DNA of 64,000 nucleotides from contig CAJXVZ010000010.1 of the NCBI GenBank assembly GCA_913062845.1, positions 1-64,000 on the forward strand. The letters are read 5' to 3'. Under the pieces are notes generated by a model, which had not been told where the DNA came from, did not search any database, and saw only the letters and a list, made by a program, of their open reading frames with translations. Below, one piece after another: positions 7,438 to 11,957 of this stretch (the stretch's first letter is position 1; each line of letters opens with the position of its first letter). The DNA is from an uncultured Psychroflexus sp. (lineage in GTDB: Bacteria > Bacteroidota > Bacteroidia > Flavobacteriales > Flavobacteriaceae). A program made the translations under genes and the position numbers.

Positions 7438-7719
7438 TCAGCAATCGTCTTTATCAGATAGGCTAGAGTCAATTTTATTGATATTATTCTTGTTTTCTGT
7501 CATCCATTCTTCAATGCCGGTTCTGTCTTTGGCTATACTTTCTGCTTCCAGTGCCGAAGATTCTGCTTCCCAATAATCTGCCGTTTTTTCAAAGGTTTCA
7601 CTAAAAGTGTCCCAATACTCAAACTCTCTTACTTCTTCAGCCTGATCATTTGTGTTCTCGAAGCTCAAATGATTTTGAGCTAGGTTCGCTAAAATGAATA
7701 ATAATACTAATTTTCCCAT
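7438..7719 (-). CDS. small exported protein, paralogue 1 of a tandem pair
   Basis: 93 residues from the ATG at 7719; the frame upstream lacks features and the twin gene has the same start context. The N-terminus (MGKLVLLFILANLAQ) is a short hydrophobic export signal. The mature part carries EYWDTFSETFEKTADYWEAE, then SALEAESIAKDRTGIEEWM, an aromatic and acidic helical block shared almost residue for residue with the gene at 8037-8318. No known family was recognised. A conserved ECF-like promoter lies upstream and a strong terminator downstream, so it is monocistronic. It is probably periplasmic or surface-exposed; the function is unknown. Confidence 0.85.
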   Translation of the reverse strand: MGKLVLLFILANLAQNHLSFENTNDQAEEVREFEYWDTFSETFEKTADYWEAESSALEAESIAKDRTGIEEWMTENKNNINKIDSSLSDKDDC

Positions 7720-7787
7720 GATTTTTGATTTTTTATTTATTGATTTGGTTTTAGAAATACTAAGAAATGTTCTTAAATACACTTCCT

Positions 7788-7821
7788 ATTTATATGACGG
7801 ATCAAAACCAGTTCTGTTACA
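7788..7821 (-). promoter_or_regulatory. ECF-sigma-like promoter of small gene 1
   Basis: On the minus strand TGTAACA (7821-7815), with 16 bases between TGTAAC and CGTC, then CGTCATATAAAT (7799-7788). The twin gene has TGTAACA and CGTCTTATAAAT with the same spacing and nearly the same distance to its ATG. TGTAAC/CGTC is the box style of extracytoplasmic-function sigma factors and differs from the TAnnTTTG promoters elsewhere in the window. Confidence 0.65.
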
Positions 7822-7977
7822 ATAAAAATCAGGAAATGTCAATATTTATGAAATATTTTAAATTATGAGTATTTTTATCACTCTAAAATATAGAATAGTA
7901 AAATAATTAAGTCAAATAAATATCAATTATTTATATAGGCTTTTTTAGTTTAATCAATCAGCTGGTAAGCTAAAACC

Positions 7978-8006
7978 AAAAAAAAGCCCCAACTATTGTC
8001 GGGGCT
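7978..8006 (-). terminator. terminator after the 8037-8318 gene
   Basis: Stem AGCCCC (7985-7990) / GGGGCT (8001-8006) with an eight-base A run (7978-7985) that reads as T on the minus strand; located 31 bases beyond the stop of the gene. Confidence 0.85.
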
Positions 8007-8036
8007 CTTTACTAAATTAAAATTAACTCAAACAAA

Positions 8037-8318
8037 CTAAATGTTTTCTTTTGTAGATGAACAAGAATCTTCGGTTTTTGGTGCATACACTTGCATCCAT
8101 TCTTCAACACCGGTTCTTTGTTCTGCTATTTCCTCTGCTTCCAAAGCCGCAGATTCTGAAGCCCAGTAGTCTGAAGTTTTATTAAACGTTTTGCTGAAAG
8201 CATTCCAATACTCCCATTGGCATATTTCTTCTTTCTCTAATGGTTTTTCCTTAGGCATTGCATCTGTATTATTATAAGAAGTCAATGCGATTATAAATAT
8301 TAAAACGAGCTTATACAT
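8037..8318 (-). CDS. small exported protein, paralogue 2 of a tandem pair
   Basis: 93 residues from the ATG at 8318, identical in length to its neighbour. Signal-like N-terminus MYKLVLIFIIALTSYNNTDA. The core EYWNAFSKTFNKTSDYWASE, then SAALEAEEIAEQRTGVEEWM aligns without gaps to paralogue 1, with most changes conservative. Both genes also share 16 bases at and just before the ATG (minus strand AAAATCAAAAATCATG) and the same ECF-like promoter, so the whole unit was duplicated. The N- and C-terminal ends have diverged. Family and role are unknown; stress-induced envelope protein is an inference from the promoter. Confidence 0.85.
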   Translation of the reverse strand: MYKLVLIFIIALTSYNNTDAMPKEKPLEKEEICQWEYWNAFSKTFNKTSDYWASESAALEAEEIAEQRTGVEEWMQVYAPKTEDSCSSTKENI

Positions 8319-8385
8319 GATTTTTGATTTTAGGTTAAAATGGTTTGGCTGATTATAACTTTTAAAAGATTTATCACACGTGCTC

Positions 8386-8419
8386 ATTTATAAGACGAAC
8401 CTATTTAAGATATGTTACA
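8386..8419 (-). promoter_or_regulatory. ECF-sigma-like promoter of small gene 2
   Basis: Minus strand TGTAACA (8419-8413), with 16 bases between TGTAAC and CGTC, then CGTCTTATAAAT (8397-8386). The spacer sequence differs from that of the twin while both boxes are kept, which argues for function. Confidence 0.65.
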
Positions 8420-8501: not shown

Positions 8502-10766
8502 TTAGGATTTGTTTTGCTTTTTAATCAAATTCAGAGCGGAACCTTCTTTATACCATCTGATCTGCGCTTCATTATAGGTGTGATTTACAGTAATTGTATC
8601 TGTACTATCATCACTATGCACAATTTCTATGGTCAACGGCTTGTCTTCTGCAAACTCGTTAAGATCAAGGAAGTTAAATGTGTCGTCCTCCTTAATTAAG
8701 TCATAATCGCTTTCATTTGCAAATGTTAGAGCCAGCATACCTTGTTTTTTAAGGTTAGTCTCGTGTATTCTCGCAAATGATTTTACAATGACTGCTGCAA
8801 CACCAAGGTGTCTGGGTTGCATTGCAGCGTGCTCTCTTGAAGAACCTTCACCATAATTATGGTCACCAACTACAACAGATAAAATGCCATTCTTTTTGTA
8901 CTCTCTTTGTGTGTCCGGTACTCCGGCATATTCTCCTGTAAGTTGATTTTTTACAAAATTGGTTTTTTTATTGAAAGCATTTACTGCACCTATCAGTGTG
9001 TTGTTGGCGATATTATCTAAGTGCCCTCTGTACTTTAACCATGGACCTGCCATTGAGATATGGTCTGTTGTGCATTTTCCAAATGCTTTGATGAGCAATT
9101 TTGCACCTTTTATTTCATCACCTATTGGTTCAAAAGGTGTTAGTAACTGAAGTCTGTCAGACGCTTCAGAAACTTTCACTTCAACGCCACTACCATCTTC
9201 TCGTGGCTCAACATATCCGTTATCTTCAACATCAAATCCTTTTTCAGGAAGTTCAATCCCTTTTGGCGCCTCTAATTTAACTTCTTCACCATCTTCATTA
9301 ATGAGCGTATCATTCATTGGATCAAAGTCTAAACGTCCGGAAATTGCTATTGCAGCAACCATTTCGGGCGAACCTACAAAGGCGTGAGTATTTGGGTTAC
9401 CATCTGCTCTTTTTGAAAAGTTTCTGTTGAAAGAGTGAACAATTGTATTTTTTTCTTCTCCTTTGAGATCACTTCTGTCCCATTGACCAATACATGGTCC
9501 GCAGGCGTTGGTGAAAATTGTTGCACCCAGATCTTCAAAAACCTTTAAAAGCCCATCTCTTTCTGCTGTAAATCGAATTTGTTCCGATCCCGGATTTATA
9601 CCAAAATCTGATTTCGGTTTAAGCTTTTTCTTAACGGCCTGTTCAGCTATGGACGCTGCACGCGTTAGGTCTTCATAAGATGAGTTTGTACAGGAACCAA
9701 TTAATCCCCAGTCTACTTTTATCGGCCAGTCGTTCTTCTTAGCCTTTTCTCCTAATTCTCCAACCGGTGTCGCTAAATCTGGTGTAAAAGGTCCATTGAG
9801 ATGAGGTCTTAATGTTGACAGATCAATTTCAATGACCTGATCAAAATAAGTGTCCGGATCTGCATAAACTTCTGGATCTCCAGTCAAATATTCTCTTAAT
9901 TTATTAGCCTCGTCGGCAATTTCATTTCTGTCTGTCGCTCTAAGGAATCGCTCCATAGAATCATCGTATCCAAATGTAGATGTGGTTGCTCCGATTTCAG
10001 CTCCCATGTTACAGATGGTTCCTTTACCCGTGCAGGAAAGGTTTTTTGCGCCTTCTCCAAAGTATTCAACTATACACCCTGTTCCGCCTTTTACAGTTAG
10101 GATTTCTGCAACTTTAAGAATCACATCTTTTGCTGCCGTCCAACCTTGAGGGCTGCCTGTGAGTTTAACACCTATGAGTTTCGGAAATTTTAACTCCCAT
10201 GGCATTCCGGCCATCACATCTACGGCGTCTGCACCTCCAACACCAATGGCTACCATTCCGAGTCCGCCGGCATTAACCGTGTGCGAATCTGTTCCTATCA
10301 TCATTCCTCCTGGAAATGCGTAGTTTTCTAAGACAACCTGGTGAATAATACCTGCACCGGGTTTCCAAAATCCAATACCATATTTATTTGATACAGACTC
10401 CAGAAAGTCAAAAACTTCATTACTGGTTTCATTTGCTCTGGCAAGGTCTTTGGCTGCACCTTGTTTAGCTTGTATTAAGTGGTCACAATGCACTGTTGTT
10501 GGCACAGCAACTTTGTCTTTTCCGGCTTGCATAAACTGAAGTAAAGCCATCTGAGCGGTTGCATCCTGACAAGCAATTCTATCGGGATTAAATTCTACAT
10601 AGTCTTTAGCTCTGGTGAAAGCCTTTGTGGGTTCACCGTCTGATAAGTGAGAATAAAGTATTTTCTCTGAAAGCGTTAAGGGTTTTCCAACGATTTCCCG
10701 GGCTTTATCTACTCTTCCGGCCATTCTTGAGTAAACGGCCTTAATCATATCAATGTCAAATGCCAT
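8502..10766 (-). CDS. acn: aconitate hydratase
   Basis: 754 residues, the length of the mitochondrial-type aconitase found in Bacteroidota. The [4Fe-4S] ligands are visible as C359 ([11 protein letters not shown]), C422 and C425 ([10 protein letters not shown]). [13 protein letters not shown] (158-170) and [14 protein letters not shown] in the C-terminal swivel domain are further hallmarks. It interconverts citrate and isocitrate in the TCA cycle. It is a single-gene unit: a terminator follows, and 237 AT-rich bases precede it with a -7-like TACTTTTG (10809-10802, minus). Confidence 0.97.
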
Positions 10767-11003: not shown

Positions 11004-11957
11004 TTACAATAATTGCTTAATTATTTCTTCAATAGAGTAGCCTTCTGCTTCAGCTTTGTAGTTTTTGATTACCCTGTGTTTCAGAACGCTGTATGCAATA
11101 GCCTGGACATTCTCTATATCGGGTGAGAATTTACCTTTGGTAGCGGCATGGGTTTTGGCTGCAAGGATTAAGTTTTGTGATGCCCTTGGTCCGGCGCCCC
11201 AGTCTACAAATTCCTTGACAAATTCCGAAGCATTTTCATCATTTGGTCTGGTTTTGGCAACTAACCTCACTGCATATTCAATAACATTATCTGCAACAGG
11301 CATCCTTCTTATGAGTTGCTGTATGTCTATAATCTCATTTGCATCAAATAAGTGTTTTATGTTTTCACTCTGCACGTTTGTTGTACTTTTTACAACTTCG
11401 ACCTCTTCTTTAAAGCTAGGATACTCCAGATTTATTGCAAACATAAAACGATCGAGCTGAGCTTCCGGAAGCGGATAGGTTCCTTCTTGTTCAATCGGGT
11501 TTTGCGTGGCTAATACGAAATAAGGCTCACTGAGCTTATGGTGCTGCCCTGAAATGGTCACGGCTTTTTCCTGCATCGCTTCCAATAAAGCAGATTGTGT
11601 TTTCGGCGGTGTACGATTGATCTCATCTGCAAGAAGAATATTTGTGAAAACCGGACCTTTTATGAATTTAAAATTTTTATTGGCATCCAATATTTCAGAC
11701 CCCAATATATCACTCGGCATTAGATCCGGTGTAAACTGAACCCTTTTAAATTCTAGGCCTAATGCTTTTGATATTGTATTTACCATAAGGGTTTTAGCTA
11801 ATCCCGGCACACCAATAAGTAAAGCATGACCACCAGAGAATATGGCAATAAGTATTTGATCTACTACTTTTTCCTGACCTATGATGACCTTCGATATTTC
11901 CCTTTTTAATAGGTCGTGTTTCTCTACAAAACGTTCAATTCCTTTTACGTCCGACAT
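11004..11957 (-). CDS. moxR: MoxR-family AAA+ ATPase
   Basis: 317 residues. Walker A GVPGLAKT (49-56), Walker B ILLADEIN with D111 and E112, and the later sensor and lid regions fit the MoxR group (AAA_3 plus AAA_lid). MoxR ATPases act as chaperones for maturing enzyme complexes or envelope proteins, usually with von Willebrand-type partner proteins; none is encoded next to it here. It starts 22 bases after the SurA-like gene, so it is the last gene of the folding operon running down from 16199. Confidence 0.93.
   Translation of the reverse strand: MSDVKGIERFVEKHDLLKREISKVIIGQEKVVDQILIAIFSGGHALLIGVPGLAKTLMVNTISKALGLEFKRVQFTPDLMPSDILGSEILDANKNFKFIKGPVFTNILLADEINRTPPKTQSALLEAMQEKAVTISGQHHKLSEPYFVLATQNPIEQEGTYPLPEAQLDRFMFAINLEYPSFKEEVEVVKSTTNVQSENIKHLFDANEIIDIQQLIRRMPVADNVIEYAVRLVAKTRPNDENASEFVKEFVDWGAGPRASQNLILAAKTHAATKGKFSPDIENVQAIAYSVLKHRVIKNYKAEAEGYSIEEIIKQLL

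Follow-up and report, generated by a model that had tools for sequence, protein, structure and literature searches.

The first 64,000 nt of contig CAJXVZ010000010.1 from an uncultured Psychroflexus sp. (this whole stretch is the window below, and G000 is its own genome) carry two adjacent genes, A and B, that encode small proteins of a common family, called here the twin family. The two genes are probably a tandem pair for an exported protein specific to one clade, and probably belong to the output of a conserved, autoregulated regulon of a GFO_1088/PG0214-type extracytoplasmic function (ECF) sigma factor. An old envelope-stress programme thus seems to have gained them recently. Their regulation by this regulon rests on comparative sequence, namely on the promoter boxes described below.

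Twin genes and their promoter boxes

Upstream of both genes, TGTAAC is followed after 16 bases by CGTC, with an A directly after TGTAAC and (A/T)TATAAAT after CGTC (Table 1). The first-pass annotation of the window, which had proposed two adjacent 93-residue genes under identical ECF-like promoters, was right within about a base on gene coordinates, boxes and spacing; both genes are present on the minus strand and are homologous. It had placed the boxes 68–69 bases from the ATG; measured from the end of (A/T)TATAAAT, the distance is indeed 68 bases for A, but 67 for B. The exact motif, TGTAACA-N15-CGTC, occurs twice in the window against 0.01 expected, and none of 100 shuffles reached two occurrences. 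The pattern TTG-N19-TAnnTTTG, to which the other promoters of the window had been assigned, is weak by the same measure, with five occurrences against 2.41 expected and nine shuffles reaching five.

We aligned five upstream regions, those of A, B and the twin genes of three relatives from the genus (G303, G314, and G319, from which a second, boxless copy was omitted). All 11 box positions are invariant, compared to 2 of the 15 spacer positions. This agrees with the earlier remark that the boxes are conserved while the spacers drift. Loss of the boxes at orthologous loci had been named beforehand as the outcome that would speak against the proposal; TGTAACA-N15-TCGTC is kept in all three relatives with a twin gene next to the aconitase gene (acn). 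Consisting of two boxes at a fixed spacing (16 bases between TGTAAC and CGTC) upstream of genes, TGTAACA-N15-CGTC has the layout of an ECF promoter.

The twin proteins are 52% identical across 75 residues. The proportion of nonsynonymous differences (pN) is lower than that of synonymous differences (pS) in all 15 pairs among six twin-family sequences, and equals 0.20 vs 0.59 in the core of A and B; by this measure, both open reading frames (ORFs) are genuinely coding and under purifying selection. The core residues Y, W, F, S, T, F, T, D, W, E, S, A, L, E, and A are invariant in the six aligned homologues. Gene B corresponds in position to the one acn-linked copy that G303, G314, and G319 each have; there, as in G000, aconitase precedes the twin gene. 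Among 21 further genus genomes whose aconitase end was read, the next gene is thioredoxin-like in 14 and something else in seven (classified by eye). As each of the three relatives has one acn-linked copy, A looks like a local duplicate.

Table 1. Coordinates of the twin genes, their promoters and further features (window positions, or loci elsewhere marked L)
Feature	Position	Strand	Basis
Gene A, 93-residue predicted exported protein, core EYWDTFSETFEKTADYWEAESSALEAE	7438-7719	-	ORF; pN < pS
ECF-type promoter of A, TGTAACAGAACTGGTTTTGATCCGTC	7796-7821	-	11/11 box positions invariant in 5 aligned upstream regions
Gene B, 93-residue homologue of A, adjoining aconitase	8037-8318	-	ORF
GCACGTGT, B form of the ACACGTGT palindrome	8376-8383	-	close to where the transcript should begin
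ECF-type promoter of B, TGTAACATATCTTAAATAGGTTCGTC	8394-8419	-	11/11 box positions invariant in 5 aligned upstream regions
Gene for aconitate hydratase, next upstream of B (shown for context)	8502-10766	-	ORF; named from sequence and neighbours, not by family search
Promoter of the 29-residue peptide	L074:5308-5333 and downstream	-	
WNxxRR micropeptide loci, genus	L049, L063, L066, L077, L081, L100, L105, L119 (3 copies)		
WNxxRR micropeptide loci, other genera	L189, L288, L296		

The probable sigma factor and its proposed regulon

The GFO_1088-type sigma gene of the window's genome (G000:C5) is preceded by AGTAACA-N15-TCGTC, and its product scores 206.3 bits against NCBIfam NF058625 ('GFO_1088 family ECF-type sigma factor, sigma_PG0214'; cut-off 130). 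Downstream of it lie a gene for a 150-residue protein with one hydrophobic stretch (by eye), then two genes for DUF4252 proteins, the neighbouring one scoring 186 bits against NF058626 (cut-off 150). The 150-residue protein, which had no match in Pfam or NCBIfam, is the probable anti-sigma factor. Counting the own gene, 26 sigma counterparts were found in 26 of the 27 genus genomes (E < 1e-23). The exact motif precedes 20 of them, a one-mismatch form precedes three, including that of the own genome, and no motif precedes the remaining three (the G314 site was read in L103). We infer, with good support from these promoters, that the GFO_1088-type sigma factor reads the promoters of A and B.

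The ECF-regulated reading of the first-pass annotation thus gains support from the presence of the motif before one particular ECF sigma gene, and likewise from a regulon seen in the genus and the family when the genome and its relatives were scanned for the boxes, as the annotation had proposed. In the own genome, TGTAACN{15,17}CGTC has ten matches, seven with 16 bases between TGTAAC and CGTC. All seven exact sites read TGTAACA and are intergenic and upstream of an ORF (in one case an ORF for just 29 residues); they precede A, B, and genes for an ABC ATPase, an M61 peptidase, the 29-residue membrane peptide, a GLPGLI (Porph_ging) protein, and a MacB-type ATPase. One-mismatch sites were rejected as regulon members, being not enriched over the control, and 14 of the 20 lie inside ORFs. 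Among the six outside ORFs, the plausible ones are those of the sigma gene and perhaps of a 140-residue membrane protein and a carboxypeptidase-regulatory-like gene.

In the 27 genus genomes we found 95 exact sites, compared to 24 for the reversed pattern. Sorted by gene content, 88 of the 95 are upstream of a recognisable product, a fraction that describes rather than tests the regulon, as the sorting patterns were chosen after seeing the genes. The larger classes are ABC ATPases (23), ECF sigma factors (20), carboxypeptidase-regulatory-like proteins (10), WNxxRR micropeptides (10), and the twin family (5). The smaller ones comprise M61 peptidases, the 29-residue peptide, and a 490-residue exported protein (three each), MacB, DUF4870, and lipoproteins (two each), and five singletons. 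Seven sites have no assigned product, and five of these are within ORFs. In the family sample, 268 of the 299 genomes have at least one exact motif; the first 100 of the 299 contain 639 sites vs 79 reversed, with 88 genomes above their control and two below. From 18 family genomes, 14 of them read at a single site only, we examined 58 loci with 54 distinct sites, four of which are in long ORFs. The sigma gene is downstream of the motif in eight of these 18 genomes, and other loci carry genes encoding Pmp3, DUF456, DUF4870, ankyrin, rhodanese, and MacB-like proteins.

With 15 sigma-70 region-2 genes in the genome, another ECF factor, or several, might read the boxes instead of the GFO_1088-type one. 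Moreover, the authors of a study of Flavobacterium psychrophilum allow, in the passages considered here, that an ECF motif of that species may serve several factors (PMC9723704). A candidate is the second ECF gene at G000:C63 (L179; site 11932-11957), preceded by TGTAACA-N15-TCGTA. However, its promoter has CGTA rather than CGTC, and CGTA is also kept at all four lower-scoring ECF loci retrieved that have its downstream stretch in common (kinship judged by eye); the two factors may thus be told apart by the final base of the -10 box. As the exact CGTC motif is found at 20 of the 26 promoters of GFO_1088-type genes, we consider it fairly unlikely that a different factor is responsible. As a separate observation, the CGTC and CGTA factors are perhaps a natural specificity pair.

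For the GFO_1088-type factor we infer a scheme that comprises the sigma assignment, autoregulation, an anti-sigma role, a stress signal, export, and a protective function. The probable anti-sigma factor, a small transmembrane protein encoded beside the sigma gene, would hold sigma at the inner membrane until envelope stress frees it. RNA polymerase with sigma would then recognise TGTAACA-N15-CGTC and transcribe the sigma operon itself, together with genes for an ABC-2 exporter, the M61 peptidase, a MacB-type system, small membrane peptides, and A and B. The twin proteins would be exported via Sec and lose a short signal peptide. The mature domain (74–79 residues; acidic, helical, and rich in aromatic residues) may then work in the periplasm, where its most likely role would be to bind, and so protect, exposed hydrophobic surfaces of the envelope or of proteins. 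The envelope or stress role is suggested by the co-regulated genes, and function is the weakest step of the scheme. If it holds, a sigma factor that we met only in expression tables would be tied to a precise promoter sequence, and its regulon could be read from genomes alone. In addition, several unannotated small proteins would be placed in an apparent envelope-stress programme, where their function can be assayed.

The twin family: distribution, probable export and possible roles

The first-pass annotation had called the twin proteins members of no known family, and this holds in Pfam, NCBIfam, PADLOC, PHROGs, and PDB. The sole Pfam line was FMN_dh with E 0.13, far below the cut-off; there were zero matches in NCBIfam, PADLOC, and PHROGs; and the best hit of a PDB profile search with the family had E 0.32, which we read as chance. 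A role in defence was rejected given no PADLOC match, and so was a phage or mobile origin, as 41 pattern stretches in viral contigs yielded zero relatives and PHROGs gave no match.

A search of the genus with B matched 8 of the 27 genomes at E <= 1. Clear members are present in four of the 27, G000, G303, G314, and G319 (two copies in the latter). G306 (L017, G306:C34) has a decayed fragment most similar to A; that genome has no exact site anywhere and no motif at its sigma counterpart, which is suggestive, in a single genome. Weak genus matches with E > 0.01 were treated as chance in the single-sequence and profile searches alike, and those in G301, G304, and G310 (E 0.28–0.52) were rejected accordingly. 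A six-sequence profile matched nine of the same 27 genomes at E <= 5 and added no further clear member. Outside the genus set, the twin gene was found in none of the 298 other genomes of the family sample by single-sequence search and in none of the 394 other genomes of the phylum sample by profile search; the sets (299 and 395 genomes) are samples that include the window's genome, and the three twin-bearing relatives are in neither. Single-sequence search may miss homologues, since a contig scan with A alone gave no match while a later alignment-based search found four loci. Within these comparisons, the twin family appears clade-specific.

Each of the six twin proteins starts with a short hydrophobic stretch. 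In four of the six, Gln stands right after the plausible end of a signal peptide (assigned by eye, with no signal-peptide program), as in the Bacteroidetes Q-rule, by which a signal peptide is followed by Gln at the mature N-terminus (PMC5837995, PMC10653852). The mature part, assumed to start at residue 15 and thus 74–79 residues long, is acidic with an isoelectric point of 4.1–4.5. An AlphaFold model has a helix at residues 3-16 and one long helix at 27-78. A and B are probably exported proteins with a signal-like start and an acidic, probably helical body that carries the invariant aromatics; export is predicted from these sequence features.

Several observations weigh against the reading of A and B as outputs of the GFO_1088-type regulon with a role in the envelope. 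The own sigma promoter of the window's genome has one mismatch (AGTAACA), and the second ECF gene (G000:C63) has an almost identical -35 box. The three sigma counterparts lacking the motif are the most distant ones, 34–37% identical, and those of G302 and G320 have the motif but contain internal stops in the match. The looser N15–17 pattern falls below its reversed control in the own genome (10 vs 21), as do sites with at most one mismatch (27, seven of them exact, vs 49); the signal is thus confined there to the exact form at the exact spacing. In G319, TGTAAC is missing from the 260 bases upstream of the dispersed second copy, and G317, whose sigma factor is about equally close (70% identical), lacks a twin gene. 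As for the proteins, Gln is absent from the expected position in B and in one G319 copy, the AlphaFold model is of low confidence (pLDDT 60, pTM 0.27), and amphipathicity is modest, being equalled by 4–10% of shuffles in three sequences.

The twin proteins could instead be feedback regulators, periplasmic sensors or inhibitors that act on the anti-sigma factor, following the logic of RseB and CpxP. They are small, probably exported products whose promoter is of the type that precedes the sigma gene, and a tandem duplication could tune such feedback. Still, the sigma counterpart is present in 26 of the 27 genus genomes, compared to clear twin genes in four and one decayed copy, and the acn-linked twin genes are outside the sigma operon, all of which makes feedback unlikely. 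The same small size, probable export, divergence, duplication, and clade restriction would fit secreted antagonistic or signalling peptides of a bacteriocin-like kind, the stress promoter being coincidental. However, the flanking ORFs look ordinary, with no immunity gene, protease, or exporter recognised among them (no family-by-family search), and PADLOC and PHROGs gave no match; we regard this as distinctly improbable. Finally, the boxes of A and B are of common descent, as the genes are paralogues, but a resemblance due to chance or to tandem duplication as such is hardly credible given intact boxes with diverged spacers in the five regions, the 0.01 sites expected in the window, and the distribution of sites in the genus and the family.

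Known systems and other candidate elements of the regulon

Spy/CpxP-type periplasmic stress proteins are small, helical, exported, and induced by envelope stress. The twin proteins would share this logic; they matched no Pfam family above the cut-off, and no sequence kinship is claimed.

Comparisons with published systems draw on passages of the papers cited. In Porphyromonas gingivalis, PG_0214, PG_0215, and PG_0216 are an ECF sigma factor, a putative anti-sigma factor, and a DUF4252 protein (PMC10101095), the order of sigma, small transmembrane protein, and DUF4252 seen here. These genes are 8–11-fold higher under H2O2 in FLL361, a PG_0686 mutant according to the title (PMC10101095), and in a PG0720 mutant PG0214, PG0217, PG0218, a DUF4252 gene, and two GLPGLI genes are lowered together (PMC8757827). 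PG0214 is one of six ECF factors listed for strain W83 (PMC9862357). The differences are that no promoter motif is given for the factor in these P. gingivalis passages (PMC10101095, PMC9862357, PMC8757827), and that no twin gene occurs in the 298 sampled family genomes besides the window's own. Another P. gingivalis ECF factor, SigP, is from the same phylum and is linked to secretion genes, but its proposed motif, C(T)AAA(G/C/T)A(T)A(C)T(A/G)A, is unlike TGTAACA-N15-CGTC (PMC4800418).

The promoter type has a counterpart in SM6 of F. psychrophilum, a mapped class of ECF-type promoters with a CGT box, which the authors do not assign to any one of the seven ECF factors (PMC9723704). SM6, compared here without its -35 sequence, shares the CGT box and targets such as an ECF/anti-sigma pair and an ABC-transporter ATPase; it differs in its type IX secretion system targets (GldN, PorU), which we did not recognise among the downstream genes, with no search aimed at them (PMC9723704). 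Hence the label 'undescribed' given in the first-pass annotation suits the protein family, but neither the promoter type (SM6) nor the sigma factor (NF058625). In the open-licence PMC literature we found no paper giving TGTAACA-N15-CGTC for a GFO_1088-type sigma factor and no description of the twin family.

The acn-linked twin genes have a further element, the ACACGTGT palindrome, which stands 10 bases (B) or 11 bases (G303, G314, G319) after CGTC and is degenerate in A. In the form (A/G)CACGTGT, it is thus found 10–11 bases after CGTC in four of the five upstream regions (L014, L015, L016, and B). CACGTG within 34 bases occurs at one other of the 95 genus sites, at a different distance. It is a candidate operator or 5'-untranslated element.

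Two kinds of small peptides follow the same promoter. Micropeptides of 28–41 residues with WN(S/L/N)(K/L/I)RR or WNxKRR near the C-terminus are encoded directly after the exact promoter in eight genus genomes and in three genomes of other genera; two representatives had no match in Pfam or NCBIfam. A 29-residue peptide with a single transmembrane segment, MS(S/A)K(Q/K)LDF..., follows the promoter in the window's genome, where it had no Pfam match, and at two G319 sites (L110, L111).

Our confidence is evenly balanced on a broader proposal, that a conserved ECF stress regulon of Flavobacteriaceae is a platform that recruits unannotated small proteins again and again. Examples would be the twin family with its EYW core in a single clade, the WNxxRR micropeptides (28–41 residues) across genera, and the 29-residue membrane peptide. 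CACGTG at the transcript start, found at that position in no other genus site, would form a second control layer of the acn-linked twins.

Table 2C of the SM6 study lists a putative regulatory RNA, Rfp11 (PMC9723704); at a guess, this might be the mRNA of a WNxxRR-type micropeptide.
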